The notes beneath the pieces were generated by a model. It did not search any database, was not told the origin of the DNA, and was given only the letters and a program-made list of their open reading frames with translations. Shown here in pieces: positions 39,549 to 56,489 of a stretch of DNA of 64,000 nucleotides (the stretch's first letter is position 1; each line of letters starts with the position of its first letter). The DNA is taken from assembly GCF_039645565.1 (NCBI RefSeq), contig NZ_CP147914.1, positions 1,857,573 through 1,921,572 on the forward strand. The letters are read 5' to 3'. The position numbers were made by a program, and so were the translations under genes. The stretch is from Sulfurimonas sp. HSL1-2 (GTDB taxonomy: Bacteria > Campylobacterota > Campylobacteria > Campylobacterales > Sulfurimonadaceae).

Positions 39549-42500
39549 TCAGAAGGTTGCGCGTACCGAGAGGGAGTAGGAGCGGCCTGTTTTATACTTG
39601 AAGGTCGTCTGGCTTCCCTGCTCCCAGACCGTTTCGTCGTCGAGGAGGTTCTTGACCTTGAAGGTCAGGTCCAGCGTCGTATTGAGCGCATCGACCTCGA
39701 ACTTCTCGATCCAGGTGAAATCGAGCAGGTGCGGCGGGATCTCGTAATCGTCCAGCCCGAGGATAACGTCGCCGTTTTTCAGCGCGACGCGCATCAGACG
39801 GCGGGCCATCTTGTTGTACGAGAGGTTGACCGAACGCGTGTTCGGGTCGTCGTAGGTCAGCGAGAGGTTGAGCACCTGCGGTGAAAGCCCCTGCAGACCG
39901 CGGTCCTGGGTCACGAATTTCGCTTGCTGCTCCGGCGTCAGCTCCACCTTGGAGTAGATATAGGTGTAGTTCCCGCCGAAACTGACGTTCTCCAGCGACG
40001 AATCGATAAAATCGAGGTGCTTGTTCCAGCTCAGCTCGATCCCCGCCAGCTCCGCCGCCTTGGAGTTGTCGAAGGAGAAGCGCGGCAGGGTACCCGTCGT
40101 GAAGGCGCGGGTATCCTCGATCGGGTTGTCCATGTGCTTGTAGAACAGCGCCGCCGTCAGGGCGTCCGTCTCGTTCATATAGTATTCGTAGCGCGCATCG
40201 ATGCTCTGGATATCCGTCTCGATCAGGTCCGGGTTCCCCGCGACTTTCGCCAGGTAGAGCGGGTGCATGAACTCGGCATTGACGAACTCACGGAAGTCCG
40301 GGTAGATGAAGGTCTCCGAATAGGCCAGACGGAACTGGTTGCTGTCGTCGAGGCGGTAGGTCATCCCGAGGCTCGGGAGGACTTTGTTGAACTTCAGCGT
40401 ATTCGGCGTCAGTACGATGATGTTGTTATCGACCTGATACTGCTCCACCGTCTGGCGCAGATCCACGTAGCGTCCGCCGAAGGTGATATCCATCGCCTCC
40501 GTCGGTTTGATCATCCCTTTGACATAGTAGGCGTTGCGGTCGAGCTCCGCATTGTACTGGTCTCTGGGCAGTGAGGTCAGCGAGAAGTCCAGGTCCGAAC
40601 CGTCGCCGTAGTTGATAATGCCGTTGATCGGACCGGAGCTGACACCGAGGTCTTTGATGTTACTCTGCATCTGCAGGTCGACCCGGCGCCCTTCACGCTC
40701 TTTATGCTCGGTGACGATCCCGGCTTCGAGGTAGTCCTCGTCGCTGAGCATCGGCACCTGGGTGCGGTTCTTCGCATAGACGTTGTAAAGCTTATCGTCC
40801 GTCGTACGGTGGCTGTAGCTCAGCATGCTGTCCGGACGCGCAAAGACGTACGGCTGCGTCGAGAAGTACTGCTTGTAGTTGTAATAGACATCGTTGGGAA
40901 CGTATTCGCTCGCCTGGGCAAGCTCCGCACCGAAATCGAAGCGGTTGTCGACCCACAGCTTGTAGTCAAGGCCGCCGCTGAGCTGATCGATGTTGAGCTC
41001 GCGCTCCTGCCATTCGAAATAGTACTGGTGCTCTTTGGAGTTGTTCTCGCCGAACGTCCCGTTGACGTCACGGGTCTGGTCGAGCGTATTGAGCACGAAG
41101 AGTTTCGTATACTGCAGGTCCAGGTTGCGGAACTGGTACCCCAGGCTGATAATCCCGCCGTGCTGGATCGTCGTCTGCAGCATGTCGTTCGTCGCGGTGT
41201 TGTCCGGCGTCGGCGTCTGTACCCCGTCACGGGAGACGAGGTAGTCGTAGGACGTGTAGGTACGCAGGCTGGATTCGCCTTTGTAGCCGTAGGAGGCCAG
41301 CAGGCTCAGCTCGTGCTCATCGGCGATCGTATACTGTTTGCCGAACTCGACCTGCACTTCGCCGCCGTAAGGCACGGTCGTCGACTGTGCATTGACGTCA
41401 CGGCGCTGCAGCATGGAGCGCAACTCCGCGTCCGTATAGTTGAGTGTCGGCGGTGTCGATCCTACCGTCGGCAGGGATGCACTGTTAAAGGAGCCAGGGA
41501 AGGGGCGGAAACTGTGGTCATAGCCCGTCCAGTCCGAGGAAGCACCCTCATACGTGGTCGCATCCTTCCCGGCGCTGTCATGGGCATTGATCCCCAGCTT
41601 GATGCTGGCATGGTCCTCATCGACGTTCGACTTGGTCCGCACGTTGACGTAGCCGCCGCCGAACGCACCGGTGATGTCCGGGGTGAAGGTCTTCTGTACC
41701 TGCAGGCTCCCGATAACCATGCTGGGGAACATGTCCAGCGGGACCGTCCGTTTGATCGGGTTCGGTGAGGGCAGCGACATCCCGTTGAGCTCGGTGTTCG
41801 AGTAACGGTCACCCAGACCGCGGACATAGATGTACTTGCCGCCGATGATCGTAATCCCCGGGACACGTTTCAGGGCGCTCGCCGCGTTGGAGTCCCCCTG
41901 CTTCGACATCTGCGCCGAACCGATCACGTTCGCGATCGTTTCGCTGTTGCGGACCTCCGCCATGACGGCCGCGATACTCCCCTCGACCTGCGGCGCCAGG
42001 ACGACGAACTCTTCGAGTTCCATCGCCGCCGGGCTCAGCTCGACCGTGCGGCTGACCATCTCTTTGGGCAGGACCGTCACTTTGATGTTCTGCGAAGAGT
42101 AGCTGGTGTGGATGATCGAGAGCGTCTGGTTCCCCTCCGGCAGGTCGATCACGATATGACCGGCCGCATCCGAAACGGCGTTGACCTTCACGCCCGGCAC
42201 GAAGACACGGGCACCCGCAACCGGTTTCTCATCCTCGCCGGAGAGCAGTGTCAGCGCCACCGTACCGTTGACGCGCGCGACACTCTTCTTGGTGTCCGCT
42301 TCCGTGGCCAGGTCGGCCGGGGCTTCGACGTCCGCGAAGGAGAGCGTATTGTCCGTCTTGAGCGACAGGATGATCTGGGTCTGTTTGCCCGGCGCGATCA
42401 CGAAGTTCTTTTTGACGAAGGCCTGGGGCGTCCCGTTGTCCGTCGCCAGCAGCTGGAGCTGGTAGCGCCCTTCGGGCATTGCCGTGGTCAGGTAACCCTG

Positions 42501-42695
42501 CGCATCCGTCATCCATTCGGCGCCGAACATCTCCGACGCCGCAGCCTCGTTCTCCGTGTCGGAGAGCAGTTTGACGATGACGACCTGCTGCTCCGGAAGC
42601 GGTTTGCCGTCTTTGAGCACGTAGAGTGAAAGTTCCCCGCCCGCGGCGAAGAGGCTCATGGTCAGCCAGGTTACCAAAAAAAGTATACGCATCAT
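39549..42695 (-). CDS. Large TonB-dependent outer-membrane receptor, 1048 aa
   Basis: After the signal peptide (MMRILFLVTWLTMSLFAAGG) come two carboxypeptidase-regulatory-like beta domains (about residues 20-115 and 140-220), then a TonB plug (ALKRVPGITIIGGKYIYVRG, RYSNTELNGMSLPSPNPIKR, GGGYVNVRTKS) and a long beta-barrel ending in aromatic SLSVRATF. The first residues overlap the TPR gene stop. The last gene of an operon encoding its own energising complex. By promoter evidence it is probably induced by phosphate starvation, so a phosphorus-containing ligand is the leading guess; the ligand is not shown by sequence. Confidence 0.92.
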   Translation of the reverse strand: MMRILFLVTWLTMSLFAAGGELSLYVLKDGKPLPEQQVVIVKLLSDTENEAAASEMFGAEWMTDAQGYLTTAMPEGRYQLQLLATDNGTPQAFVKKNFVIAPGKQTQIILSLKTDNTLSFADVEAPADLATEADTKKSVARVNGTVALTLLSGEDEKPVAGARVFVPGVKVNAVSDAAGHIVIDLPEGNQTLSIIHTSYSSQNIKVTVLPKEMVSRTVELSPAAMELEEFVVLAPQVEGSIAAVMAEVRNSETIANVIGSAQMSKQGDSNAASALKRVPGITIIGGKYIYVRGLGDRYSNTELNGMSLPSPNPIKRTVPLDMFPSMVIGSLQVQKTFTPDITGAFGGGYVNVRTKSNVDEDHASIKLGINAHDSAGKDATTYEGASSDWTGYDHSFRPFPGSFNSASLPTVGSTPPTLNYTDAELRSMLQRRDVNAQSTTVPYGGEVQVEFGKQYTIADEHELSLLASYGYKGESSLRTYTSYDYLVSRDGVQTPTPDNTATNDMLQTTIQHGGIISLGYQFRNLDLQYTKLFVLNTLDQTRDVNGTFGENNSKEHQYYFEWQERELNIDQLSGGLDYKLWVDNRFDFGAELAQASEYVPNDVYYNYKQYFSTQPYVFARPDSMLSYSHRTTDDKLYNVYAKNRTQVPMLSDEDYLEAGIVTEHKEREGRRVDLQMQSNIKDLGVSSGPINGIINYGDGSDLDFSLTSLPRDQYNAELDRNAYYVKGMIKPTEAMDITFGGRYVDLRQTVEQYQVDNNIIVLTPNTLKFNKVLPSLGMTYRLDDSNQFRLAYSETFIYPDFREFVNAEFMHPLYLAKVAGNPDLIETDIQSIDARYEYYMNETDALTAALFYKHMDNPIEDTRAFTTGTLPRFSFDNSKAAELAGIELSWNKHLDFIDSSLENVSFGGNYTYIYSKVELTPEQQAKFVTQDRGLQGLSPQVLNLSLTYDDPNTRSVNLSYNKMARRLMRVALKNGDVILGLDDYEIPPHLLDFTWIEKFEVDALNTTLDLTFKVKNLLDDETVWEQGSQTTFKYKTGRSYSLSVRATF

Positions 42696-43843
42696 TGCTG
42701 GCACTCCCAAATATTATTTTTGCATTTTTCCATTTTCTTACGCAGTTCGACCGCCTTGGAAAAGAGGTCCGGCTGCGTCAGGGTCTCGAGCAGCGCTTCG
42801 GTCTGTTCGAACTCGCCTTCCATATAGTAGGCGTAGGCGAGGGCGTAACGCATGCTCTCCTCGTCCATCAGGCCGCTGCGCGCCATGGCCTGGCGGGTCG
42901 CGATGATACGCTCGAAATCCCCGTACTCCAGGAAGATCGCGATACGCTGCTTGTACTTCTCTTTCGTATCGAGCATCTGCGTGTTCTTGAGCAGCGCCAT
43001 GACGTAATCACGGGCGCGGCGGTACATCTCCGCCGATTCGTTGGTGTACTTCCCGTCCTCGATGGAGGCTTCGTTGAAGAGCTCCGCCGCGGCACCGATC
43101 ATCTCTTTGTCAAGGTAGAGGTGCGCGAGCATCACCGTCACCTTGGCGCTGCTCGGGTAGCGGAGGTTCGCCGTTTCACCCAGTTCGATCGCCTTGTCCG
43201 TCTGGCCGCTCTGGCGCAGGGCGTTGATGAAGTTGATCAGGATCGTCTCGTTCGCCTGCGCGTTTTTCAGATAAACCTGCGCATCTTCAAGCGCCGCCTG
43301 GTAAAGCCCCAGGGAGACAAGGTAGTAGAAGCGCTGTTTGTAGGCGTCCCAGTACTCAGGGAAACGGTTGTTCACATCGCGAAGCACGGCCATTGCCGCG
43401 TCCTGATCGCCTTCACGCCAGTAACACTCCGCCTTGAGACCGAAGAGTTTCGGGTTCTGGGCCATGAGGTCGGGTACCTTATCCAGCGCCGCGATACACC
43501 CTTTGTACTCTTTGAGCTTGAAGCTGTTCTGGGCGATATAGAGGTAGAGCGGTTTGGAAGCGTTCGTATCCTCATTCAGCTCGATGGACTTGTAGAAATC
43601 CGCATTGGCCTCTTTATAGAGGCTCTGCTTCGTTTCCACCAGACCCTTGAGCATGTAGTAGCGCGGCAGGTCGGTCTCGGTATCGTTGAGATCGACCATG
43701 TTGAGGGCATCGCTGGCGCGTTCGACGTGACCGTCGCGCAGCATCATCGCCCCCAGTTCGACATAATCGACATCATCGGTTTTGGCAGCCAGTGAGACGG
43801 AGAGAGCCCCGACCAATGCCATAACAATCAGTATCTGTTTCAT
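42692..43843 (-). CDS. TPR-repeat periplasmic protein of the TonB2-type cluster, 383 aa
   Basis: A signal peptide (KQILIVMALVGALSVSLAA) is followed by many helical TPR-like units (LPRYYMLKGLVETKQSLYKE; ECYWREGDQDAAMAVLRDV). In Vibrio a TPR protein follows tonB2 and helps the TonB2 system. GGAGGAG precedes the ATG. Genes on both sides are adjacent or overlapping, so it belongs to the same transcript as the receptor. It probably contacts TonB or the receptor in the periplasm. Confidence 0.87.
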   Translation of the reverse strand: MKQILIVMALVGALSVSLAAKTDDVDYVELGAMMLRDGHVERASDALNMVDLNDTETDLPRYYMLKGLVETKQSLYKEANADFYKSIELNEDTNASKPLYLYIAQNSFKLKEYKGCIAALDKVPDLMAQNPKLFGLKAECYWREGDQDAAMAVLRDVNNRFPEYWDAYKQRFYYLVSLGLYQAALEDAQVYLKNAQANETILINFINALRQSGQTDKAIELGETANLRYPSSAKVTVMLAHLYLDKEMIGAAAELFNEASIEDGKYTNESAEMYRRARDYVMALLKNTQMLDTKEKYKQRIAIFLEYGDFERIIATRQAMARSGLMDEESMRYALAYAYYMEGEFEQTEALLETLTQPDLFSKAVELRKKMEKCKNNIWECQQ

Positions 43844-43855: not shown

Positions 43856-44494
43856 TTAATTGAGGTCGAAGCGGATCTTCTGCTTCGCCCATACTTTGAC
43901 CGGTTCGCCCTGGTACTGCGCCGGCTTGAACTCCCACGTTTTGACGGCCGCCACGGCGACATCCTCGAAGGTGCCTTCCGGGGTACTCTCAAGCACCTTG
44001 ACCTTTTCGACATGCCCCTGCTTGTTGATCAGCAGGTTCATCAGTACATAACCCGTAACACCCATCTTGCGGGCCTTTTTCGGATACTCGATCGGCGTGC
44101 GGCGTGAAGGCTGCGGCGCCTGGTCGACCGTATCGTCGGTCATGACCATATCCTTACCGACATCACCGAGCAGCGCATCGTCGCTGAGCAGATCGTCGGA
44201 CTGGAAGGCTTCAAGACCCGTATCGATCCCCGAGAGCTGCGAACTGAGGTTCGGCGTCGGTGCCGCACGCTTGGGCTTCACCTTTTTCGGCTTCGGTTTC
44301 GGTTTGGGCTTCGGTTTCGGTTTGGGCTGGGCAACCTGCTGGATATCAAACTGTGCCGTCGCCTCTTTCTTCTTGGTAGGTTCATCCCACCCTTCCTTGT
44401 TCATCTCGATGACGACGATGAACACGAAAAAGAGACCGAAAACGCTCCACAGGAGTGCCAGCGCGTGTTTTTTCAGCGGGGAAGCGGTGCGCAC
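43856..44494 (-). CDS. TonB energy transducer (TonB2 type), 212 aa
   Basis: A membrane anchor (ALALLWSVFGLFFVFIVVIE), a striking run of seven consecutive Lys-Pro dipeptides (QPKPKPKPKPKPKPKKVKPK), and a C-terminal TonB fold with RRTPIEYPKKARKMGVTGYV and KTWEFKPAQYQGEPVKVWAK. The GTG at 44494 is chosen: it lies one base after the exbD stop with GAGG 9 nt upstream, whereas a longer frame would lie inside exbD. Confidence 0.92.
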   Translation of the reverse strand: MRTASPLKKHALALLWSVFGLFFVFIVVIEMNKEGWDEPTKKKEATAQFDIQQVAQPKPKPKPKPKPKPKKVKPKRAAPTPNLSSQLSGIDTGLEAFQSDDLLSDDALLGDVGKDMVMTDDTVDQAPQPSRRTPIEYPKKARKMGVTGYVLMNLLINKQGHVEKVKVLESTPEGTFEDVAVAAVKTWEFKPAQYQGEPVKVWAKQKIRFDLN

Positions 44495-44495
44495 C

Positions 44496-44900
44496 TTACC
44501 CGACCTCTTTCTTCGTGGCGACGGCGACATCCTTGGCACCCGACATGCGGCACTGGTCGACGACTTCGATCAGTTTCTCCACCGGGATGGTATCGTCCGT
44601 CACGACCAGAACCGACTTCTCCGTCGAGGTGCGCAGCAGATCGCGCAGTTTGCTCTGGAGCGCCCAGACCTTGATGGGCTGGTTGTCGACGTAGGCCTGT
44701 GCCTGGTTGTCGAGGTAGACCTTGATCACCTTGCTCGATGCCCGTGACGCCGAAGAGGCCCCCGGACGTTCCAGGTCGAGCTTCATGTCCTTGACAAAGG
44801 TCGTACTGACCATGAAAAAGATCAGCAGAATAAATACCATATCGATCAGCGGCGAAATATCGACGGCCTGATCCAGCTCTTTTTTCTGTCTAAAACGCAT
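44496..44900 (-). CDS. ExbD of the TonB2-type system, 134 aa
   Basis: N-terminal membrane segment with the proton-coupling Asp (DISPLIDMVFILLIFFMVST) and a periplasmic domain (VLVVTDDTIPVEKLIEVVDQ). It abuts exbB upstream and is one base from tonB downstream. Distinct from the second ExbD at 21725. Confidence 0.94.
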   Translation of the reverse strand: MRFRQKKELDQAVDISPLIDMVFILLIFFMVSTTFVKDMKLDLERPGASSASRASSKVIKVYLDNQAQAYVDNQPIKVWALQSKLRDLLRTSTEKSVLVVTDDTIPVEKLIEVVDQCRMSGAKDVAVATKKEVG

Positions 44901-45515
44901 TTACTTTCCTTCTTCTTCCGAACAGACGATATCCTTGATCTGTTCCAGTTCGAGTTCCATGATCTTCGAATGGCGGTCGATCAGACGACCGACGACCAGG
45001 CCCGGTACGGCAACAACGAGCCCGAGCTGCGTCGTAAAGAGCGCCTGCGAGATCCCCGCAGCGATCCCCCCGCCCTGGCTGTAGAGCGTCATGCTCCCGA
45101 GCGAATCGAAGGTTTCGATCATCCCGGCAACCGTTCCCAGCAGACCGATCAACGGTGAAACCATGACGATGGTGTTGACGGTTTTACGGTACTTTTTGAG
45201 TTCCTGACGGTATTCATAGAACGCATCCTCGATCAGTTCGCGCCCGACCGTGCCGCGGTAGCCCGCGTTGACGATTTTCAGGGCATCGACGACCGCGCCG
45301 TCAATGAGTCCCCGGGGCACTTCACGCTTCCCGGAGTCAAACTTGCGGATCAGTACCCGCACGCTCTTTTGCGACCCGCGCTTGATGGCGTGGAAGCGGT
45401 AACCCAGTGCGTACCACAAAACAATGACCAGAACGAACAGCGGCCACATGACAAAGCCGCCGCTCTGCATGTAGATCAGAAACTGATCGAAAAGGTTTTG
45501 GAGTCCCGGTTGCAT
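44901..45515 (-). CDS. ExbB of the TonB2-type system, 204 aa
   Basis: MotA/TolQ/ExbB proton-channel protein with a first membrane helix (FVMWPLFVLVIVLWYALGYR), then VSPLIGLLGTVAGMIETFDS and GISQALFTTQLGLVVAVPGL. It overlaps the TtpC-like gene by one base (TAATG) and abuts exbD. With ExbD it converts proton flow into TonB movement. Confidence 0.94.
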   Translation of the reverse strand: MQPGLQNLFDQFLIYMQSGGFVMWPLFVLVIVLWYALGYRFHAIKRGSQKSVRVLIRKFDSGKREVPRGLIDGAVVDALKIVNAGYRGTVGRELIEDAFYEYRQELKKYRKTVNTIVMVSPLIGLLGTVAGMIETFDSLGSMTLYSQGGGIAAGISQALFTTQLGLVVAVPGLVVGRLIDRHSKIMELELEQIKDIVCSEEEGK

Positions 45516-46828
45516 TATTTCAGCTTGTTATACTCGTTGATCAGGTGCAGCGCGGACTGCTCCATACCGTCTTTGATACGTTCCGCCCAGCCGTTGAGCA
45601 TGTTGCCCAGCAGCAGCAGCGGGATCGCAACGATCAGACCCAGTTCCGTCGTAACAAGCGCAATCGAGATACCGCCGGAGAGCAGCTTCGGATCACCCGT
45701 ACCGAACTCGGTGATGATGTCGAAGGTCGCGATCATACCGGTGACGGTACCCAGAAGCCCCAGCAGCGGTGCGACGGCAGCGACGACCATGATGGCAGAA
45801 CCGTAACGGTCGAGGCGCTCGCTCTCGTGCATGATCGCTTCGGCAACGATATCTTCAACGTGTTCACGGTCGCGGTCAAGGTTACGGACCGTCGCCTTCA
45901 TAACACGGGCTGCAGCCCCTTTTTTCATTTTGAGGAATTCCAGCGTCGCTTCAACCCCTTTGGATTTGAGTTCGTTCAGGGTCTCTTTCGCCACCGGCAA
46001 TGTTCTGGAGCCGGCTCCGCTGAGGAAGAAGGCGCGCAGTACGACGAGCAGCAGTGCGAAGAGGCCGAGGACGATGATGACCCAGCCGATCATACCGCCG
46101 GATTCGATGACGTCCATTACGCTCTTTTCCGTTTTGTCCTCGATCTCTTTGGAGACATTCTCATACACGAAAATCTCGAGCGAAGCAGGTGTCTGCCCCT
46201 GTGCCAGTGCCGCCGCCGTCGCTGCGGATTCCGGAGCATCCCACAGTTTCAGCTTGTCGCCGCCCGCCGGGACCAGGACGCCGGATGCGCCTTCGGCAAC
46301 GCCGTAGGTCGCGATGTTTCCGACCTTGACGAGTTTGCCTTTCTGCTCGCTGCCGTCTTTGAGGTAGAAACTCCCCTCGGTGACGCGGACAGATGAGAGT
46401 TCACGGCCGAGTGTCAGCGTCGACGCAAACAGCTGCTGCAGTGTCGCCGGGTAGTCCTCTTTGTTGATGGCCAGCTTGATGCCGTACGGTGCGAGGGAGG
46501 ATTGTCCCTGCAGGGCGACGGATTCAAGCAGCGCCGTGTCATCATTGATATTTTCCGCGTTCTGCTGGGAGCGGAAAAGCTGCTCGCCGAGGCGGTCGGA
46601 TGTCTGCGTCTTTACCAGAACATCATTCTGCAGAGACGCGATCTCTTTTTTCGCGGTTGCGATGCGGGCCGCATCCTCTTTTTTTACCTGTGAGAGACGT
46701 TTTTCGAGCATCTCTTTCTGGGCTTTGAGGAACGCGAACTCTTTGGCATAGGCGCGCTGCAGTTCTGTTTCCGTTGCAGCGGAGAGGGAGAGTACCGCCA
46801 TCATCAGGATAAGGACAATACGTTTCAT
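45515..46828 (-). CDS. TtpC-like large ExbB-family protein, 437 aa
   Basis: A signal peptide (RIVLILMMAVLSLSAATE), then a coiled-coil periplasmic region (EFAFLKAQKEMLEKRLSQ; about residues 20-110), a beta-rich periplasmic domain, a membrane helix (GWVIIVLGLFALLLVVLRAF) and a MotA/TolQ/ExbB domain with APLLGLLGTVTGMIATFDI. This is the architecture of TtpC, needed by Vibrio TonB2 systems but absent from ordinary TonB systems. It overlaps the DUF3450 stop (TAATG). Confidence 0.91.
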   Translation of the reverse strand: MKRIVLILMMAVLSLSAATETELQRAYAKEFAFLKAQKEMLEKRLSQVKKEDAARIATAKKEIASLQNDVLVKTQTSDRLGEQLFRSQQNAENINDDTALLESVALQGQSSLAPYGIKLAINKEDYPATLQQLFASTLTLGRELSSVRVTEGSFYLKDGSEQKGKLVKVGNIATYGVAEGASGVLVPAGGDKLKLWDAPESAATAAALAQGQTPASLEIFVYENVSKEIEDKTEKSVMDVIESGGMIGWVIIVLGLFALLLVVLRAFFLSGAGSRTLPVAKETLNELKSKGVEATLEFLKMKKGAAARVMKATVRNLDRDREHVEDIVAEAIMHESERLDRYGSAIMVVAAVAPLLGLLGTVTGMIATFDIITEFGTGDPKLLSGGISIALVTTELGLIVAIPLLLLGNMLNGWAERIKDGMEQSALHLINEYNKLK

Positions 46829-47592
46829 TATTTCACCTCCGTCGTCGCAATGGCATTCGGCAGGGTAAAGTAGCCGGTGCGGATCTGTTTCTGCATCGCA
46901 TCAAAAAGTGCGAGGATCTGTTCTTGTTCCGTCTTGTTCACGGACTCTTTGTAGTACCAGCCGTTGGCGTCTTTGGCCGCATAGCCGACACGGTCATCCG
47001 GGGTTTTGAAGAACATCATCACGGAACCGAGACGGGCGATCTCAGCCAGGCGGTCTTCACCGTCAAGCTTGATCGTCTGTTTGAACAGGCCGTTCTCCTT
47101 CGTCATGCGCACTTCGTCGGCATAACTGTTCCAGACCTGGGCCAGCGCTTTCTGCGGTGTGATAAGCCCTTCGTTCATCTGGCTCTCGATACGTTCGACA
47201 TCTTCCAGGCGTTCTGCCGTTTTAAAAGGAAGTTCGGAAGCGATCTGTGCTTTGAGATCGGCGATGGCGGCAACGACAACGGGCTTGATGCCTTCGCTGT
47301 TCTTGCTCGCCGCTGCGATCTGCTGACGGACTTTGGCGATCTCCTGCTCGATCTGCTTGATCTTCAGGTTTTCACGTCCGATCGTCGCATCGAGCTCGTT
47401 CTTTTCCAGAACAAGCGAGCGCATTGCCGCTTTCGTGTCGTCTTTCTCTTCCTGAATCTGCGTATTCAGTTTTTCGACTTCGGCACGCAGCTTCATCAGT
47501 GATGCCGCCATATTTTCTTCGGTACTTGCTGTCAGTGTCGATGCTGCGATCAACGAACCGGCCAGCCAGAGTTTTATCGTATTCGGTACCAT
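46828..47592 (-). CDS. DUF3450 periplasmic coiled-coil protein, 254 aa
   Basis: A signal peptide (TIKLWLAGSLIAASTLTAST), a long coiled coil (LRAEVEKLNTQIQEEKDDTK; about residues 25-100) and a C-terminal domain with DRLAEIARLGSVMMFFKTPD. DUF3450 proteins precede ttpC in TonB2 clusters, as here. First gene of a seven-gene operon ending with the receptor. Three Pho-box-like repeats lie upstream of its -10 region. It may span periplasmic distance together with TtpC. Confidence 0.88.
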   Translation of the reverse strand: MVPNTIKLWLAGSLIAASTLTASTEENMAASLMKLRAEVEKLNTQIQEEKDDTKAAMRSLVLEKNELDATIGRENLKIKQIEQEIAKVRQQIAAASKNSEGIKPVVVAAIADLKAQIASELPFKTAERLEDVERIESQMNEGLITPQKALAQVWNSYADEVRMTKENGLFKQTIKLDGEDRLAEIARLGSVMMFFKTPDDRVGYAAKDANGWYYKESVNKTEQEQILALFDAMQKQIRTGYFTLPNAIATTEVK

Positions 47593-47753: not shown

Positions 47754-49955
47754 TTACTTTGCAGTAACATCTTTGAAGCTGATAGTCGCTTTTTGTAATG
47801 TTGAGAAGAGCTTCTTCGTATGGAAGGCTGCATCCGTGTCGGTGAGTCTGCTGATCAGACCGTTGACAAACGCCGGAGCCGTCGTATCGTCTTTGATGTA
47901 GATACCGCCCTCGTCGCTTCCGTTGACCTTGTTGATGGAGAAGTTGGAGATCTTCGCCATTGTCATCGGAGTGTCACCGCCGGAAGAGATTTCGAAACCT
48001 GCATGGGCAATCTCTTTCTGCTGGACAAAGATGTTCGTTGCATGACCGCTGTAACCATAGTCAAGGTCGAAGCTGTCATCCTGGCAGTTGATCATCGCCA
48101 GGTTGCTGACGTCTACCGTACCGCCCCAGATCTCGATACAGTCGTCAGAGGAGTTGATAACCGTAACATCGTCGATCAGTGTGCCTGCACCGACACCTGC
48201 CAGTGAAAGACCGTTGATCTCGAGGTCAGTTGCAACCGTGTAACCGGAGTTCATGATGTAAACGTTGCGCAGAATACCGCTGTTGTCGTTCGCATCACCT
48301 GCACCCATCGTCGCGTTACCGAATGCGAAATCCGGATCCGTCTCGTCAACCTCGTAGAACGGGCTGGCGTGGTTCGTCGGCGCTTTACCCAGGAGTGTCA
48401 GACCGCCCCACTGGCCAACGTCTGCCGCTGCCGGGTTCATCAGTGCCATCTTGGAAGTAAAGATGATCGGCGCATCTTTCGTACCGTCGGCAATGATCTT
48501 GGATCCCTGTGTAACAACGATGTAGTTCGCACCGGCGTCACCGAAGACAACCGTACCCGGCTCAACTGTCAGCGTCGCACCGTTTTTGACTTTGACCAGG
48601 CCCTGAACGTCCCATTGCTTGTCCGCAGTCAGCGTCGTGTCAACCGTGATGTCGCCTGTCAGAACGCTGATGTTCGCTGCATCGTATGCCGGAGCCGGTA
48701 CCGCTGTATATGTCGCATCGTTCGCTTCGTAACGTACCTGCACGTCCGCCGCACCCGCACCGTCATAGAGCGTTTCCGCACGGACGGTGACATCATTGAA
48801 GGCGATAACCGCTTTCTGCGTTGCAGAGAAGAGTTTCTTCGTATGGAACGCCGCGTCTGTTGCACCCATCGTGCTGATCAGGCCGTTAACGAATTCCGGA
48901 GCCGTCGTATCGTCTTTGATGTAGATACCGCCCTCGTCGCTTCCGTTGACCTTGTTGATGGAGAAGTTGGAGATCTTCGCCATTGTCATCGGAGTGTCAC
49001 CGCCACTGGAGATCTCGAAACCTGCATGGGCAATCTCTTTCTGCTGGACAAAGATGTTCGTTGCATGACCGCTGTAACCATAGTCAAGGTCGAAGCTGTC
49101 ATCCTGGCAGTTGATCATCGCCAGGTTGCTGACGTCTACCGTACCGCCCCAGATCTCGATACAGTCGTCAGAGGAGTTGATAACCGTAACATCGTCGATC
49201 AGTGTGCCTGCACCGACACCTGCCAGTGAAAGACCGTTGATCTCGAGGTCAGTTGCAACCGTGTAACCGGAGTTCATGATGTAAACGTTGCGCAGAATAC
49301 CGCTGTTGTCGTTCGCATCACCTGCACCCATCGTCGCGTTACCGAATGCGAAATCCGGATCCGTCTCGTCAACCTCGTAGAACGGGCTGGCGTGGTTCGT
49401 CGGCGCTTTACCCAGGAGTGTCAGACCGCCCCACTGGCCAACGTCTGCCGCTGCCGGGTTCATCAGTGCCATCTTGGAAGTAAAGATGATCGGCGCATCT
49501 TTCGTACCGTCGGCAATGATCTTGGATCCCTGTGTAACAACGATGTAGTTCGCACCGGCGTCACCGAAGACAACCGTACCCGGCTCAACTGTCAGCGTCG
49601 CACCGTTTTTGACTTTGACCAGGCCCTGAACGTCCCATTGCTTGTCCGCAGTCAGCGTCGTGTCAACCGTGATGTCGCCTGTCAGAACGCTGATGTTCGC
49701 TGCATCGTATGCCGGAGCCGGTACCGCTGTATATGTCGCATCGTTCGCTTCGTAACGTACCTGTACGTCCGCCGCACCCGCACCGTCATAAAGAAGTGTG
49801 CTCGTCGTTGTTGTATTGACATCTGTTGTCGTATTCGTATCCGTGTTGACAGTGGTACCTGTACCACCACCGCCGCCGCCGCAGCCTGAGAAAGTAAGAA
49901 GAATGGCTGTCGCAGCGCTCAGCGCGATTGCGGATGTGTTTTGTGAAAGGGCCAT
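47754..49955 (-). CDS. Surface lipoprotein with two near-identical 341-residue beta-helix units, 733 aa
   Basis: A signal sequence with lipobox (ILLTFSGC) precedes a Gly run and Thr/Asn/Asp-rich spacer. Two nearly identical units follow, each beginning YDGAGAADVQVRYEANDATY and containing LVKVKNGATLTVEPGTVVFG and DDCIEIWGGTVDVSNLAMIN, a right-handed parallel beta-helix pattern with acidic Ca-binding-like loops. No catalytic motif is recognised. GGAG precedes the ATG. The gene is monocistronic, lies next to the TonB operon, and its promoter resembles the Pho promoters, so a surface ligand-capture or hydrolysis role in phosphorus scavenging is suggested but unproven. Confidence 0.82.
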   Translation of the reverse strand: MALSQNTSAIALSAATAILLTFSGCGGGGGGTGTTVNTDTNTTTDVNTTTTSTLLYDGAGAADVQVRYEANDATYTAVPAPAYDAANISVLTGDITVDTTLTADKQWDVQGLVKVKNGATLTVEPGTVVFGDAGANYIVVTQGSKIIADGTKDAPIIFTSKMALMNPAAADVGQWGGLTLLGKAPTNHASPFYEVDETDPDFAFGNATMGAGDANDNSGILRNVYIMNSGYTVATDLEINGLSLAGVGAGTLIDDVTVINSSDDCIEIWGGTVDVSNLAMINCQDDSFDLDYGYSGHATNIFVQQKEIAHAGFEISSGGDTPMTMAKISNFSINKVNGSDEGGIYIKDDTTAPEFVNGLISTMGATDAAFHTKKLFSATQKAVIAFNDVTVRAETLYDGAGAADVQVRYEANDATYTAVPAPAYDAANISVLTGDITVDTTLTADKQWDVQGLVKVKNGATLTVEPGTVVFGDAGANYIVVTQGSKIIADGTKDAPIIFTSKMALMNPAAADVGQWGGLTLLGKAPTNHASPFYEVDETDPDFAFGNATMGAGDANDNSGILRNVYIMNSGYTVATDLEINGLSLAGVGAGTLIDDVTVINSSDDCIEIWGGTVDVSNLAMINCQDDSFDLDYGYSGHATNIFVQQKEIAHAGFEISSGGDTPMTMAKISNFSINKVNGSDEGGIYIKDDTTAPAFVNGLISRLTDTDAAFHTKKLFSTLQKATISFKDVTAK
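47860..49793 (-). repeat. Tandem in-frame duplication with period 1023 bp
   Basis: About 910 bases of 47860-48770 recur almost unchanged at 48883-49793. Differences seen are few, for example CCGGAAGAGATTTC versus CCACTGGAGATCTC near 47972/48995 and ACGCCG versus ATTCCG near 47870/48893. The flanking first and last ~110 bases of the unit differ more, so the central part looks recently duplicated or homogenised. Confidence 0.92.
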
Positions 49956-49985
49956 AAATGTTCTCCGTAAGTAAAAGATGGCGGA

Positions 49986-50018
49986 AGTGTAAAATTGTTT
50001 TGTTACAACGCCTGCACA
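49986..50018 (-). promoter_or_regulatory. Pho-box-like promoter of the duplicated lipoprotein gene
   Basis: On the minus strand TGTGCA (50018-50013) and TGTAAC (50007-50002) are 11 bp apart, followed after 10 bases by TACACT (49991-49986). The ATG is at 49955. Confidence 0.6.
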
Positions 50019-50066
50019 GCAAGATCACTGAATGATTACATTATTCTGCAGGCGGAGTATTCTTTA

Positions 50067-50083
50067 TGTAACCGAAACGTAAT
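50067..50083 (+). promoter_or_regulatory. Possible Pho box upstream of the first phoB paralogue
   Basis: TGTAAC (50067-50072) and CGTAAT (50078-50083), 11 bp apart, 55 bases before the ATG. The expected -10 position reads TAAGGT, a poor match; GCTATAAAC near 50105 is an alternative. Confidence 0.4.
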
Positions 50084-50137
50084 GTCCTTTTAATAAGGTT
50101 CCGTGCTATAAACATTAATTTGCACAAGGTACAAGCT

Positions 50138-50812
50138 ATGAAAGCTACGATTGCCATCGTTGAAGACGATACTGATCTTCTTGAGCTCTTGGAATACAGA
50201 CTGGGCAAAGAGGGCTTCGACGTTGTCGGTTTCACCAATACGAAAAATGTCAAGCAGGTCCTGACCGAAGAGCCGGTCGACCTGATCATCATGGACCGTA
50301 ACCTTCCCGATGTCGAGGGAAGCGAATATATCGCGATGCTACGCTACCAGGGCCTCAAAACCCCGGTCATCTTCCTGTCGGCCAAAGACAGCAGTGCCCA
50401 GGTGCAGGAGGGGTTCCTGCGCGGCGGTGACGACTACATCACCAAACCGTTCGAAATCGACGAACTGATCCTGCGGATCAAGGCCGTTCTGCGCCGTACG
50501 CGCGGTGAAGAGGAGGAGCAGATCGTCACCTACCGCGACATCGAGCTGCACCTGCATTCGCGCGAAGCTTTCATCGCCGGCATGCCCGTCGAACTGACCA
50601 AACTGGAATTCAACCTGCTGCGTACCTTTATCGAGAACCGCACCACCGTGCTGCGGCGCGACTACCTGCTCAAAAGTGTCTGGGGCAAAAGCGACAGCTA
50701 CCAGGGGCGCACGGTCAACGTCGCCATCAACCGCCTCAAAGAGAAGATCGACCCGGACAAGAGCAAAGACTATATCAAAACCGTCCGCGGCATCGGCTAC
50801 ATGATCCGCTAA
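50138..50812 (+). CDS. PhoB-like OmpR-family response regulator (paralogue 1), 224 aa
   Basis: Receiver (KATIAIVEDDTDLLELLEYR; phospho-Asp in LIIMDRNLPDVEG; Lys in DDYITKPFEIDE) plus winged helix (MPVELTKLEFNLLRTFIENR; recognition region TVNVAINRLKEKIDPDKSK). The C-terminal DNA-binding segment is almost the same as that of the second PhoB at 54935, so both should read the same sites. The ATG at 50138 follows AAGG; an in-frame start at 50120 is less likely. It has no histidine kinase next to it. Confidence 0.88.
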   Translation: MKATIAIVEDDTDLLELLEYRLGKEGFDVVGFTNTKNVKQVLTEEPVDLIIMDRNLPDVEGSEYIAMLRYQGLKTPVIFLSAKDSSAQVQEGFLRGGDDYITKPFEIDELILRIKAVLRRTRGEEEEQIVTYRDIELHLHSREAFIAGMPVELTKLEFNLLRTFIENRTTVLRRDYLLKSVWGKSDSYQGRTVNVAINRLKEKIDPDKSKDYIKTVRGIGYMIR

Positions 50813-50903: not shown

Positions 50904-51689
50904 TCAGCCGAATTTACCGCTGATGTACTCCTGGGTGAGTTTTTCCGCCGGGGTGACGAACATTTCGTCGGTCTTGTTCAGCTCGATGAGCTCGCCCAGG
51001 TACATGAAGCCCGTATAGTCGCTGACGCGGGCCGCCTGCTGCATGTTGTGCGTGACGATAATGATCGTAACGCGGTCGCGCAGCTCCATGACGAGCTTCT
51101 CGATCCCCTGGGTGGAGATGGGGTCGAGTGCCGAGGTCGGTTCGTCGAAGAGCAGGACATCCGGCTCGACGGCGATGGCGCGCGCAATACAGAGGCGCTG
51201 CTGCTGTCCGCCCGAGAGGCCGTTCGCATCGTGCTTGAGACGGTCTTTCACCTCGTCCCAGATCGCGGCGTCGCGCAGCGCCTTCTCAACGCGGTCCGCG
51301 AGCTCGGTTTTGTTTTTAAGTCCCTGCAGGCGCATGCCGTAGGCGATGTTGTCGAAGATGCTCATCGGGAACGCCGTCGGCTTCTGGAAGATCATCCCGA
51401 TCTTGATACGCAGGTTGATCAGGTCCTCTTTGCTCTCAACGATGTTGCGCCCTTCGAACATGATCTTGCCGTCATACGTGTTCCCCGGATAGAGGTCGTG
51501 CATGCGGTTGAACGAACGCAGCAGGGTCGTTTTCCCGCAGCCCGAAGGCCCGATCAGGGCCGTGACCGCGTTTTTGGCGATCGGCATGGAGATGTTCTTG
51601 AGGTTCGGCGACGAAGCACCGGCATAGGTGAAACTGAAATTGTTGACTTCGATCGCCTTTTCGGACGGAATGTCGATTACGGTCGCCAT
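50904..51689 (-). CDS. pstB: Phosphate ABC transporter ATP-binding protein PstB, 261 aa
   Basis: Walker A ([20 protein letters not shown]) with the Pst-specific [10 protein letters not shown], signature [20 protein letters not shown] and Walker [15 protein letters not shown]. It powers high-affinity phosphate import through PstA/PstC. It follows pstA by 3 bases. The operon order here is pstC-pstA-pstB, with pstS on its own beyond phoU. Confidence 0.98.
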
Positions 51690-51692
51690 AGG

Positions 51693-52535
51693 CTATCTCC
51701 CTTTTTTCTTGAGTAGAATCAGACGGCCCAGAATGTTGAGGCCAAGAATAAACATCGAGAGGATGAACGCCGCGGCCCATCCCATCTTCTGCCAGTCCTC
51801 ATAGGGGCTGGTCGCGTAGTTGAACATCGTGACCGTCAGCGACGCCATCGGCTCGCTGAGATCGTAGTTGAGGAAGTTGTCGTTGAACGAGGTGAACAGC
51901 AGCGGTGCCGTCTCCCCGCCCACGCGGGCGATCCCCAGCAGAACGCCGGTCAGTACCCCCGCTTTCGCACCGCGGTAGACGACCTGCATGATCACCTTGT
52001 ACTTCGGTGCGCCCAGGGCAAAAGCCGCCTCGCGCAGGGTCGAGGGGACCAGCTGCAGCATGTCGTCCGTCGTGCGCAGAATGATCGGGATCATGATGAT
52101 CGCCAGCGCCACGACCCCGGCCCAGCCGCTGAAATGGCCCATCGGCAGGACGATAATGGCGTAGACGAAGGAGCCGATAACGATACTCGGCGCACTCATC
52201 ATGATGTCGGAGATGTCGCGGATGATCTCAGCAAGCTTCGACTTCTGGCCGTACTCGCTGAGGTAGGTCCCGGCCAGGATACCCAGCGGCACGCCGACGG
52301 CGGTCGCCACACCGACCAGGATGAGCTGGCCGATCAGCGCCTGCCGCAGACCGCTCTCCTCGTAGCCCGGAGGCGCCCCTTCGAAGACGAAGATGTTCCA
52401 GTTGATGGCATCGATGCCGTTGGCGACGAGGACATAGAGGATCCAGAAGAGAAAGCCGATCCCGATCAGGGCCGAGAGGCTCGAAAGCCCGAGGACGATC
52501 TTGTTGACGAGCAGGCGTTTTTCAATCGCGGTCAT
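51693..52535 (-). CDS. pstA: Phosphate ABC transporter permease PstA, 280 aa
   Basis: Six membrane segments starting IVLGLSSLSALIGIGFLFWI, and the permease coupling loop EAAFALGAPKYKVIMQVVYR. VPLGILAGTYLSEYGQKSKL is typical of PstA. The start overlaps the pstC stop (ATGA). Confidence 0.97.
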   Translation of the reverse strand: MTAIEKRLLVNKIVLGLSSLSALIGIGFLFWILYVLVANGIDAINWNIFVFEGAPPGYEESGLRQALIGQLILVGVATAVGVPLGILAGTYLSEYGQKSKLAEIIRDISDIMMSAPSIVIGSFVYAIIVLPMGHFSGWAGVVALAIIMIPIILRTTDDMLQLVPSTLREAAFALGAPKYKVIMQVVYRGAKAGVLTGVLLGIARVGGETAPLLFTSFNDNFLNYDLSEPMASLTVTMFNYATSPYEDWQKMGWAAAFILSMFILGLNILGRLILLKKKGR

Positions 52536-53392
52536 TTCACTTTCCTTGTACGGCGCAGAAAATAGAACTTCGCCAGCGCGATGATGACGAAGCTCATCAC
52601 CATCAGGATCAGCGCCAGTTCGAAGAGGCTCGAGAAGTAGAGATCCGTATCGGCCTCCGTGAACTCATTGGCGAGGGTAACGGGAATCGACGTCGCCGGC
52701 GCGGTAATGTCCAGCGAGATCTTGTGCACGTTCCCCATGACGAAGGTGACGGCCATCGTCTCGCCGACGGCACGGCCCAGGGCCAGGATCAGCGAACCGA
52801 TGATCCCCGCCTTGGCGTAGGGGATGACGACGTCCTTGATGACGTCCCACTTCGTCGCCCCCAGCGCGTATGCCGACTCTTTGAGGATGTCCGGCGTCGT
52901 GTTCATCGCGTCGCGGGTGACCGCCGCCATGAAAGGCAGGATCATGATCGCGAGGATAATCCCCGCAGTAAGCATCCCGATCCCCAGACCGCCGAAAACG
53001 TCACGGATGATGGGCACGAAATAGAAAAGCCCCCACATCCCGTAGATGACCGAGGGGATCGCCGCCAGCAGCTCGATGGAGACCCCGACGGGTGATTTGA
53101 GCTTCGCCGGGGCGATCTCGCTCAGAAAGATCGCCACCCCTATCGCGACCGGAACGGCGAAGAGCATCGCCAGGAAGGTCGAGATCACCGAACCGGCAAT
53201 CGCGGCGAACCCGCCGAATTTTTCCAGGTTCGGCGCCCATTTGTCCTGGAGGATGAAATCAAACCCGAACGCGGCGATCGCCTCCGTGGAGTGCTGGAAA
53301 AGCACCGTAAAAATCCAGGCGACGAGCAGCAAAATAGCCACCGCGACAAAGCGGGTCGCGTTCGCAAACAGTTTGTCAATCAGTAGTGTCAA
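52532..53392 (-). CDS. pstC: Phosphate ABC transporter permease PstC, 286 aa
   Basis: Six membrane segments, the PstC-type periplasmic stretch FGFDFILQDKWAPNLEKFGG and coupling loop ESAYALGATKWDVIKDVVIP. Start TTG at 53392 with GAGAG upstream. A Pho-box promoter lies 50-80 bases upstream. Confidence 0.97.
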   Translation of the reverse strand: MTLLIDKLFANATRFVAVAILLLVAWIFTVLFQHSTEAIAAFGFDFILQDKWAPNLEKFGGFAAIAGSVISTFLAMLFAVPVAIGVAIFLSEIAPAKLKSPVGVSIELLAAIPSVIYGMWGLFYFVPIIRDVFGGLGIGMLTAGIILAIMILPFMAAVTRDAMNTTPDILKESAYALGATKWDVIKDVVIPYAKAGIIGSLILALGRAVGETMAVTFVMGNVHKISLDITAPATSIPVTLANEFTEADTDLYFSSLFELALILMVMSFVIIALAKFYFLRRTRKVK

Positions 53393-53440: not shown

Positions 53441-53473
53441 ATGGTAAGCTACAAAGGTTACAGAAACATTACA
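53441..53473 (-). promoter_or_regulatory. Pho-box promoter of pstCAB
   Basis: On the minus strand TGTAAT (53473-53468) and TGTAAC (53462-53457), 11 bp apart, then 10 bases and TACCAT (53446-53441). There is no -35 box; the repeats occupy its place. Confidence 0.8.
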
Positions 53474-53504: not shown

Positions 53505-54941
53505 TCAGAGCAGTGGGACGTCGGCTGTCGGCGCGGTATCCGAAGCGGCACCCGGCATGAGGGGGGCGAGGCTGAAACCGAACGAGGAGCCCTCCCCTTC
53601 CACGCTGCTGATCTGCAGCTTCGTGTTGTGCAGGGCCAGGATGTAGCTGACGATGGAGAGCCCCAGTCCCATCGAATTGTCCCAGGTGTTCTTGTCGACG
53701 CGGTAGAACTTGCTGCTGATACGGTCAAGCTCCTTTGCGGCGATGCCGATCCCCCGGTCATGGACCCAGAGCATCCCGTCCGCTATCTCCAGTGTCACCG
53801 CCCCTTCGGAGTATTTCATCGCGTTATCGAGCAGGTTCGTGACGACCAGGTCGATCATCGTGCGGTCCGCTTCGACACTGCTGGGGGGACAGGAGACGTC
53901 CAGGGTCCGGTCGGTGTACTTTTTCGTAATGTTGTTTGCACACTCGGTGGCCAGATCGCAGAGATCAAACCGGCTCTTCGCCGGGGCCAGGTCATTGTTC
54001 TCGAGCTTGACGGAGAGCGACAGGCGGTCGAGCATCGTCGAGATCTTCTGGGCGTTGGCCGTGATCTTCTGCAAGAAGCGCTGCCGGATCCGGCCGTCGA
54101 TTTCCGGATCGTCATGGAGCGTCTCCGCGTAGCCGACGATCGAGGCGATCGGGTTCTTGAACTCGTGGCTGATCGCCGAGAGGATATCATTGCGCTGCTT
54201 GTTGATGAGGCGCAGCCGCGCCGTGTACTTGCGCTTCTGGCGCTCCCGCTTGGCCAGCTTCTTGACGAGGTTCTTGAGCAGCAGCGAGATCTGCAGGAAC
54301 TCCGTGAAATAGCGCGGTTTCACGACCGCTTTGTAGTTCTTGTCGCTGATCTCTTCGAGGTAGGCCGAGAGCTGGGCGATGTCGTAGCGGATCTTGCGGC
54401 TCATCCGTACCGCGAGGTAGACCACGACGAGCAGCAGCAGGGCCAGGACGCCCGCCAGCCGGTAAAGCAGTTTGTAGAAGTCGTCAAGCACCTTCTGCAG
54501 ACTGACGGCGATGCGCAGCGTGTAAGAGCGCCCCTGCCAGACGATGCGTTTGGCCACATAGAGAAAATCGATGCCGATCGTATGGGAGAAGCGGACGGCC
54601 TGGCCGAACTCCCCTTTGGCGGCGGCCATGACCTCTTCGCGGTTGGCGTGGTTTTCCATCTCTTCGCGGTTGGCATCGCTCTCCGCGGCCACCGTGCCGT
54701 CGGCGGCAATGACGGTGATGCGTTTCCCGATCCGCGGCGCCGTATCCGCAATGTAAGCGTCAAGGCTGGGAACGTACTGCAGGGTGGACTCGATCAGCCC
54801 GATCTCCTGCTTGAGCCGCACCTCGTAGTCAGTGATGACGGACTCTTTAAGGGTAAAGTAGCCCACGAATGAAGCAATGATCCCCATCAGCGCGAAGATG
54901 CCGAGGAACTGGAGGACAAATGAGTGGTGGATCTTCAGCAA
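53505..54941 (-). CDS. phoR: PhoR-like sensor histidine kinase, 478 aa
   Basis: Two membrane helices (VLQFLGIFALMGIIASFVGY; LAGVLALLLLVVVYLAVRMS) flank a periplasmic domain of about 130 residues (TVAAESDANREEMENHANRE), followed by a HAMP-like linker, H-box (LSAISHEFKNPIASIVGYAE), N-box VTNLLDNAMKYSEGAV and G boxes (DRGIGIAAKE, SMGLGLSIVSYIL). Its TTG start overlaps the phoB stop. The large periplasmic domain is unlike E. coli PhoR and like C. jejuni PhosS. It partners the adjacent PhoB and perhaps the orphan paralogue. Confidence 0.92.
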   Translation of the reverse strand: MLKIHHSFVLQFLGIFALMGIIASFVGYFTLKESVITDYEVRLKQEIGLIESTLQYVPSLDAYIADTAPRIGKRITVIAADGTVAAESDANREEMENHANREEVMAAAKGEFGQAVRFSHTIGIDFLYVAKRIVWQGRSYTLRIAVSLQKVLDDFYKLLYRLAGVLALLLLVVVYLAVRMSRKIRYDIAQLSAYLEEISDKNYKAVVKPRYFTEFLQISLLLKNLVKKLAKRERQKRKYTARLRLINKQRNDILSAISHEFKNPIASIVGYAETLHDDPEIDGRIRQRFLQKITANAQKISTMLDRLSLSVKLENNDLAPAKSRFDLCDLATECANNITKKYTDRTLDVSCPPSSVEADRTMIDLVVTNLLDNAMKYSEGAVTLEIADGMLWVHDRGIGIAAKELDRISSKFYRVDKNTWDNSMGLGLSIVSYILALHNTKLQISSVEGEGSSFGFSLAPLMPGAASDTAPTADVPLL

Positions 54942-55609
54942 AGTGTGTACCCTACTCCGCGTACCGTTTTGATGTACTCTTTGCTCTTGTCCGGGTCGAT
55001 CTTCTCTTTGAGGCGGTTGATGGCGACGTTGACGGTGCGGTCCTGGTAGACCTCATCGCCTCCCCAGACATGTTCAAGCAGGTAGTCCCGGTCAAGGACG
55101 ACGTTCTGGTTGGAGATCAGCGTATGCAGCAGGTCGAATTCGAGTTTGGTGAGCGTGATGGGGCTTCCCTCGATGGTCACCTCCCGCGAGGCGAGGTTGA
55201 GCAGGATGTCCCGGTAGGCAACGACACCCTCGGAGGGCGTACCCTTGGTCCGGCGGAGCACGGCGTTGATGCGCAGCAGCAGCTCTTTCATATTGAAAGG
55301 CTTGGTCATATAGTCGTCCCCGCCGCGCATGAACCCCTCTTCGATATCGCTCTCTTTGTTCTTGGCGCTGAGGTAGATGACCGGGGTCTGGATCCCCTCC
55401 TTGCGCAGCAAAGCGACGAATTCGCTCCCCTCCGCACCGGGAAGGTTCCGGTCCATGATCATCAGGTCGACCGACTCCTCCTCGAGCACGCGGCGGACGT
55501 TTTTCGTGTTCAGGAATCCGATCGTCTCAAACCCCTCTTTTTCCAGGTTGTACTCGATGAGTTCAAGAAGGTCCTCTTCATCCTCAACAATGACTATCGT
55601 CGTTTGCAT
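54935..55609 (-). CDS. phoB: PhoB-like phosphate response regulator (paralogue 2), 224 aa
   Basis: Receiver (MQTTIVIVEDEEDLLELIEY; Asp in LMIMDRNLPGAEG; Lys in DDYMTKPFNMKE) and winged helix (ITLTKLEFDLLHTLISNQNV; TVNVAINRLKEKIDPDKSK). It overlaps phoR and follows phoU by 20 bases, so phoU-phoB-phoR form one operon. The ATG at 55609 is used instead of an in-frame codon at 55621. Confidence 0.93.
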   Translation of the reverse strand: MQTTIVIVEDEEDLLELIEYNLEKEGFETIGFLNTKNVRRVLEEESVDLMIMDRNLPGAEGSEFVALLRKEGIQTPVIYLSAKNKESDIEEGFMRGGDDYMTKPFNMKELLLRINAVLRRTKGTPSEGVVAYRDILLNLASREVTIEGSPITLTKLEFDLLHTLISNQNVVLDRDYLLEHVWGGDEVYQDRTVNVAINRLKEKIDPDKSKEYIKTVRGVGYTLC

Positions 55610-55629
55610 CGCGTTTCCCACTCCCTTAT

Positions 55630-56298
55630 TTAGTAGCTCTGAAGTTTCCCGCCTTTGTGTTCGAACATCAGCAGGTTGGCAACGTTGACGGCACGGTCGC
55701 AGACCCGTTCGAGCTTGCGCAGCGTCCCCAGCATCCGGACATACGATGCGGAGAGCTCATGCTCGGAGATGATCATGGACATGATATCTTTTTCGAGGAT
55801 CGCGAAGAGGTCGTCGTTTTTGCTCTCTTCAACCATTACTTTCCGGTAGGTCTCCTCAACATCGCAGGAGTCGATCTTTGAAACGCACTCATAGATGCTG
55901 GTCAGCGCATTGACGACGCTCTTGTGCAGCTGGACGATGGCATTGTCGAAAGGTTCAAGGTTGCAATCGCTCTGCATCAGTTCACGGATGCGGCGGGCAT
56001 ATTTTTTCGTCCCTTCGGCGATGCGGACCAGTTCGTTGGTCATCTTGAGGTAGGCCACCAGCCCGCGGAGTTCCTGGGCTTCCGGTCCGAACAGCGCAAA
56101 GGTCTTCACGATCTCGTTGTCGACGGTGTTGCCGTCGTTTTCGATCATCTTCAAGGTTTCCGTCGCTGCTTCGAAACCGTCCGCATTCTTGGCGCTGTAC
56201 GCCTCGAGAGCCATACGGTTTGCTGTAACCTCTTTATGAATGATCTCGGCGACCATCCCCTGTATCTCGCGCAACTTTGTTTCGTAGCGTGGAAGCAT
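55630..56298 (-). CDS. phoU: Phosphate signalling protein PhoU, 222 aa
   Basis: All-helical PhoU: two repeats of the three-helix bundle, with ENDGNTVDNEIVKTFALFGP and SKIDSCDVEETYRKVMVEES carrying acidic metal-binding residues, and an ending LERVCDRAVNVANLLMFEHK. It represses PhoR signalling when phosphate is sufficient. The ATG at 56298 has AAGGA at good spacing. First gene of phoU-phoB-phoR, led by a Pho-box promoter with a perfect TATAAT. Confidence 0.95.
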   Translation of the reverse strand: MLPRYETKLREIQGMVAEIIHKEVTANRMALEAYSAKNADGFEAATETLKMIENDGNTVDNEIVKTFALFGPEAQELRGLVAYLKMTNELVRIAEGTKKYARRIRELMQSDCNLEPFDNAIVQLHKSVVNALTSIYECVSKIDSCDVEETYRKVMVEESKNDDLFAILEKDIMSMIISEHELSASYVRMLGTLRKLERVCDRAVNVANLLMFEHKGGKLQSY

Positions 56299-56399
56299 GC
56301 TCATCCTTACTTTATTTCAGATAGTGTAACACAACTCCCATAGGCGGCGGTATACCCGGGCCGCGGCAGCCGTGTTTTAGTTGATAATTGATGGCCGGG

Positions 56400-56456: not shown

Positions 56457-56489
56457 TGTAATCATTTTGTAACCGTGCGATCCTACAAT
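56457..56489 (+). promoter_or_regulatory. Pho-box promoter of pstS
   Basis: TGTAAT (56457-56462) and TGTAAC (56468-56473), 11 bp apart, 10 bases, then TACAAT (56484-56489). The ATG is at 56518. Confidence 0.85.

Follow-up and report, generated by a model that had tools for sequence, protein, structure and literature searches.

A predicted ElpS-type lipoprotein with two homogenized units and its candidate TonB-dependent receptor partner at a phosphate locus of Sulfurimonas

The window analysed here, a stretch of 64,000 nucleotides from Sulfurimonas sp. HSL1-2, contains an open reading frame with an ATG start that encodes a protein of 733 amino acids, named BH throughout. According to the gene order, BH heads an operon in which it is followed by TtpB-, TtpC-, ExbB-, ExbD-, TonB- and TtpD-type genes and finally by the gene of a TonB-dependent receptor (TBDR). 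On its other side lie genes for phosphate uptake and its control (Table 1).

Table 1. Features of the BH locus, in positions of the window
Feature	Position	Strand	Basis
TBDR, proposed transport partner of BH	39549..42710	-	PF00593, PF07715, PF13715; paired replacement with BH
TtpD-like TPR protein	42692..43843	-	TPR models; position at the end of the energizer genes, as for tonB2 of V. vulnificus
TonB	43856..44539	-	PF03544
ExbD	44496..44900	-	PF02472
ExbB	44901..45515	-	PF01618
TtpC-like MotA/TolQ/ExbB protein	45515..46828	-	PF01618
TtpB-like DUF3450 protein	46828..47592	-	PF11932 (7.8e-31)
BH, gene of a 733-aa lipoprotein of the ElpS type with predicted double beta-helix and lipobox Cys25	47754..49955	-	ORF call, LTFSGC lipobox, predicted model
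Unit 2 3' edge, the protein C terminus, unit-specific	47754..47873	-	113/114 bases match sister species
Unit 2 homogenized core	47874..48767	-	self-comparison with unit 1
3' edge of unit 1 with linker; unit-specific, common to sister species	48768..48896	-	site patterns, AU tests
Homogenized core of unit 1, at gene positions 166-1059	48897..49790	-	888/894 identical to unit 2
Divergent BH/PhoB-like promoter region; at 50068-50083 a Pho-box-like repeat	49956..50119		repeat scan
PhoB-like response regulator	50120..50812	+	TIGR02154 PhoB best NCBIfam model, below cut-off; PF00072, PF00486
pstB, pstA, pstC; preceded by a Pho-box-like repeat at 53457-53472(-)	50904..53392	-	pstA PF00528; pstB and pstC named from translations
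Sensor kinase, PhoB-like regulator, PhoU	53505..56304	-	family model matches
pstS; Pho-box-like repeat upstream at 56458-56473	56518..57522	+	TIGR00975 (2.6e-105), above cut-off

BH is predicted to be a lipoprotein. Like ElpS-type proteins it has a lipoprotein signal peptide, with an LTFSGC lipobox whose Cys25 is invariant among the aligned relatives. The lipobox, together with a relationship to ElpS-type proteins, supports the designation as a surface lipoprotein that the protein had been given in a preliminary description of this DNA. No Pfam or NCBIfam model matches BH above cut-off, a further sequence search gave chance-level matches to phage families only, and no solved relative was found by sequence; enzyme families were rejected on these results. 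An AlphaFold2 model with a mean pLDDT of 84.5, for which 14 sequences were aligned, is composed of two right-handed beta-helix lobes. Among solved structures, the best matches to lobe 1 are beta-helix proteins with Z of about 22; with a Z of 22.3 to the alginate epimerase AlgG (rmsd 2.8 over 253 residues), the predicted model falls within the right-handed parallel beta-helix class. This fold is common to alginate epimerases and lyases and to polygalacturonases, but in itself it gives no function, and families missing from the list of fold matches may apply as well. A set of invariant acidic residues in lobe 1 (D263, D264, E267, D285, D286, D289 and D291) recurs in each lobe, where it plausibly forms a binding or catalytic site.

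Between BH and the receptor lie six adjacent genes on the same strand, which match PF11932, PF01618 (twice), PF02472, PF03544 and TPR models and as such make up an energizer of the TtpC-containing TonB2 type. Compared with a sister species, these genes (43856-47592(-)) are 85-92% identical at the DNA level in most 500-bp windows, versus about 95% for the flanks and 97-99% for the receptor gene. The lower identity of the energizer genes suggests recombination inside the operon.

The neighbourhood points to phosphate. The pattern GTAAY-N6-GTAAY, in which the repeats follow each other with an 11-base spacing that is also the spacing of the Pho box, is present at 4 places in the window, where 0.04 would be expected. 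The sites are found upstream of pstS, upstream of the gene at 57806, upstream of pstC and in the divergent promoter region between BH and the regulator gene. There are 13 such sites genome-wide, 4 of which are within 8 kb at this locus. Genome-wide, the reversed pattern used as a control is just as common; therefore it is the clustering of the repeats, and not their count, that constitutes evidence. Moreover, the exact repeat near BH reads toward the PhoB-like gene, which weighs against taking it by itself as a sign of BH control. Induction of the BH operon under phosphate limitation may be presumed, indirectly, from the pst/pho neighbours and the Pho-box-like sites. In four other loci (L062, L095, L097 and L099), pst genes also adjoin BH. 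The gene at 57806-59146(+), one of those preceded by a Pho-box-like repeat, encodes a 446-residue protein with NCBIfam porin_ExtI as its best match, below cut-off; possibly it is a phosphate-induced porin.

Within BH, comparison of the gene with itself at an offset reveals two units with a period of exactly 1023 bp. Their cores share 888 of 894 bases, including one uninterrupted run of 749 bp, and dS between the units is 0.019. The 5' edges are unrelated, one being the lipoprotein leader and the other the linker, and the 3' edges reach an identity of about 77% or lower. In these respects the preliminary description was accurate: it had recognized near-identical tandem units with this period, differing edges and conserved synonymous sites, and its estimate of about 910 near-identical bases is close to the measured 894. 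DNA and protein searches of the 2.52-Mb genome found no second copy of BH. Cassette-based antigenic variation, considered as a source of such a gene, was rejected since these searches gave no silent donor copies elsewhere in the genome.

Near-identical repeats can arise in assembly or polishing, and the identical run of 749 bp is indeed longer than short reads; moreover, in a draft genome of a relative (G002) the contig stops inside the BH gene. Nevertheless, an artefact seems unlikely because the separately assembled genome of the sister species (G006) has the same two-unit gene, in the same place and with the same unit-specific edges. Furthermore, BH lies on one complete contig, the six core differences between the units have been preserved, units truly diverged to the extent seen in G006 would have been resolved by the reads, and near-identical units are also seen in genomes that are complete in one contig, G031 and G137 among them. 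Taken together, these observations leave such an origin with hardly any probability.

The comparison of both units with orthologues, proposed earlier as a way to separate recent duplication from conversion, was made with the sister species, where the BH orthologue has 733 residues and two units at the same place, and where nucleotide identity to this genome around the locus is about 95%. The unit-to-unit identity of the cores is 99.3% here and 92.7% in G006, while between the species it is 90-91%. At 48 core sites the two units share a state within each species that differs between the species. Unit-specific states common to both species are found at a single core site versus 48 edge sites, half of these in the 3' edge and half where leader and linker meet. 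Accordingly, the core tree groups the units by species, with grouping by unit rejected (p-AU 7e-55), and the tree of the 3' edges groups them by unit position, with grouping by species rejected (p-AU 8e-7). Core dS is 0.019 between the units versus about 0.3 between the species. Cores that group by species, with flanks that group by repeat position, are what defines concerted evolution of an intragenic repeat.

These opposite histories of core and edge imply an old duplication with homogenization of the core since then. As the unit-specific edges are common to the sister species, the duplication must be older than the species split. These sequence comparisons strongly support concerted evolution of the units after that split, through either gene conversion or unequal crossover. 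A recent tandem duplication confined to this lineage, with edges that diverged afterwards, would account for the low core dS between the units, but not for the presence in the sister species of the same two units with their unit-specific edges and linker, nor for a 3' edge tree in which species grouping is rejected; in addition, an edge divergence of more than 20% is impossible while the core stays 99.3% identical. We consider this origin extremely improbable and reject it on the grounds of the shared edges and the AU tests. Of the two options left in the preliminary description, recent duplication or ongoing gene conversion, the first thus falls; the second holds in the wider sense of homogenization, whether by conversion or by unequal crossover, which the AU tests support and which recurs in relatives.

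Related BH proteins carry one, two or three units, so that the earlier suggestion of a variable copy number is borne out between species, although unit numbers taken from draft genomes are uncertain given that near-identical units can break short-read assemblies. In the same-genus draft mentioned above, the contig (G002:C21) ends inside the BH gene (L015, positions 1-268), and short-read drafts may undercount units. Several relatives have sibling units with 96-100% identity; at the DNA level this amounts to 100% in G011 and G084, 99.6% in G137, 99.0% in G031 and 97.3% in G029. In the three-unit pair G140 and G096, unit 1 keeps its identity across the species, whereas homogenization within each species has affected units 2 and 3, and AU tests on this pair repeat the pattern. 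Units have stayed diverged in G001 and G007, which belong to the same genus as the present strain (81-83%), and sibling units of the two-unit proteins in Gammaproteobacteria are mostly 63-82% identical. The apparent first unit of G193 and G180 is a different N-terminal domain and was therefore not taken for a diverged unit; G144, too, has a single detected unit. It is speculation that unit number would tune surface reach or ligand avidity.

As to how the cores are homogenized, unequal crossover from two to three and back to two units could do so in place of gene conversion. Relatives with three units exist (G140, G096, G177, G090 and L090), and an ancestral linker would survive repeated cycles. 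The G006 core, however, is patchy: it has 65 differences, between which the longest identical run measures 146 bp (permutation p 0.0004). This suits short conversion tracts better. The same applies to G177, in which the non-adjacent units 1 and 3 are 99.2% identical and unit 2 is at 77%. Unequal crossover as the sole route therefore seems somewhat unlikely, yet it deserves to be taken seriously next to conversion.

BH genes are found beside a TBDR gene or in a TBDR operon in Campylobacterota, Gammaproteobacteria and Bacteroidota, and at the present locus the association is visible as a paired replacement. With respect to G001 and G007, BH is 34-36% and the receptor 42% identical, versus 90-96% for the six intervening genes; the genes neighbouring the locus are conserved as well (89-99%). 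In a nucleotide scan, the gaps in similarity coincide with the positions of BH and the receptor gene; these lie about 5 kb apart, and only these two have been replaced together. A second swapped pair is seen between L057 and L108, with distances of 0.16 for the energizer, 0.61 for BH and 0.58 for the receptor. Over 26 loci, BH and TBDR distances correlate with a coefficient of 0.89 (permutation p 0.0005 for a partial r of 0.88 with the energizer genes taken into account), compared to 0.30 for BH and the TPR protein. Allele types also recur as pairs, with the type of this genome in L047, L046 and L065, and the G001 type in L096 and L108. The best reading of this co-replacement and co-divergence is that it is the pattern expected of cognate partners. 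Co-transfer without direct contact could be part of the cause of the co-divergence, but the intervening genes did not follow.

Elsewhere in the window, a Wzz/Wzc-like chain-length/tyrosine-kinase gene and a polysaccharide export gene (26696-29861(-)) are 43-52% identical to the genes at the same place in all three same-genus relatives, with flanks at about 94-99%. They are another swapped pair, probably belonging to a surface polysaccharide locus. Two genes at 60047-63593(+), encoding proteins of 893 and 297 amino acids without Pfam match, are 62-68% identical in G001 and G007 and diverge faster than their neighbours.

The explanation that in our opinion probably accounts best for all these observations is that of a two-lobed lipoprotein of the ElpS type, homogenized by recombination, which acts at the cell surface as the receptor's cognate partner, the two together scavenging phosphorus in a TonB-driven manner. 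An old duplication would have given rise to the two units, and homologous recombination between them, as conversion or as unequal crossover through a three-unit intermediate, would keep the cores near-identical while the edges retain their own histories. The protein would reside as a lipoprotein in the outer membrane, with two right-handed beta-helix lobes, and may form a complex with the receptor encoded at the end of the operon, as a substrate-capturing subunit or a lid. The TtpB-TtpC-ExbB-ExbD-TonB-TtpD complex, encoded between the two, would energize the pair, which may be induced when phosphate is limiting and feed the adjacent PstSCAB importer; the ligand is presumably phosphate or an organophosphate compound.

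Alternatively, the lipoprotein might be an enzyme or a phosphatase activator that acts on extracellular organophosphate or polysaccharide, instead of a transporter subunit. Such a role agrees with the occurrence of the fold in the epimerases, lyases and polygalacturonases named above, with the acidic cluster in each lobe, and with the finding that overexpression of ElpS raises alkaline phosphatase activity (PMC2996285). Purified ElpS, on the other hand, lacks this activity (PMC2996285), and the joint replacement of BH and TBDR points to a partner role. Deletion of the receptor gene neighbouring elpS gave no measured phosphate phenotype (PMC2996285), and this result, together with the phosphatase effect, is as compatible with an accessory role as with a lid. 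We regard a purely enzymatic or activating function as rather improbable, but the two roles are not mutually exclusive.

It could tentatively be imagined, though we would not yet count on it, that ElpS-type beta-helix lipoproteins act across phyla as transporter lids for phosphorus compounds. Intragenic conversion would then maintain the match of the lobes, two or three in number, with a single receptor, and the lipoprotein-receptor allele pair would be swappable while the energizer genes between them stay. That matched lobes are functionally important is conceivable. A testable role emerges for widespread and poorly understood phosphate-starvation lipoproteins, namely that of a specificity partner of a TonB-dependent receptor. 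In addition, recurrent concerted evolution inside one bacterial gene has been documented; thanks to an outgroup and unit-specific edges, it can be clearly distinguished from recent duplication. The preliminary description had mentioned neither the fold nor the phosphate setting nor the link between BH and the receptor.

A literature search found no published work on this gene system in Campylobacterota. The closest known systems come from other groups. ElpS of Caulobacter crescentus is a surface lipoprotein made under phosphate starvation, and its gene neighbours those of a TBDR and of type II secretion (PMC2996285). In four Pseudomonadota loci, a BH gene (profile E-values 4e-56 to 1e-65) is directly followed by a TBDR gene, and GspF is encoded about 7-8 kb farther downstream; this is the layout of elpS as known here from its published description. 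The assignment of BH to the ElpS type is therefore indirect, through homology among BH genes and a gene order that matches the published locus. What BH has in common with ElpS (CC0170) and its receptor (CC0171) is a phosphate-linked lipoprotein gene associated with a TBDR gene, which is directly adjacent in the case of elpS. The differences are that relatives with the elpS layout have a single unit, whereas BH has two homogenized ones, and that the present locus combines the complete set of TtpB-TtpD energizer genes in an operon with neighbouring pst genes and lacks adjoining type II secretion genes.

The lipoproteins FI, FII and FIII of Flavobacterium johnsoniae (PUSIII, PUSIV), compared here by description, are strongly induced by phosphate depletion, are related to ElpS and have been modelled on polygalacturonase; FI and FII are abundant under these conditions, and FI is encoded beside a TBDT (PMC8115612). 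Many Bacteroidota likewise have single-unit BH genes beside TBDR genes. As far as seen, the F. johnsoniae proteins differ from BH in having a single unit, although two-unit proteins exist in Bacteroidota (L121, L132).

In its proposed way of working, BH would be reminiscent of SusD with SusC and of BtuG with BtuB, in which a surface lipoprotein is paired with a cognate TonB-dependent transporter (BtuBG: PMC10404256). The Pfam scan gave no SusD family match in BH and so does not class it as SusD-like. The folds differ too, that of SusD being helical, that of BtuG a propeller and that predicted for BH a beta-helix.

Finally, the energizer resembles the Vibrio TonB2 system, encoded in the order TtpB2-TtpC2-ExbB2-ExbD2-TonB2-TtpD2 (PMC6957404). 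Both consist of the same six kinds of components, with the DUF3450 protein first and the TPR protein last. The Vibrio system is linked to iron, whereas phosphate genes and a lipoprotein-receptor pair accompany the one described here.
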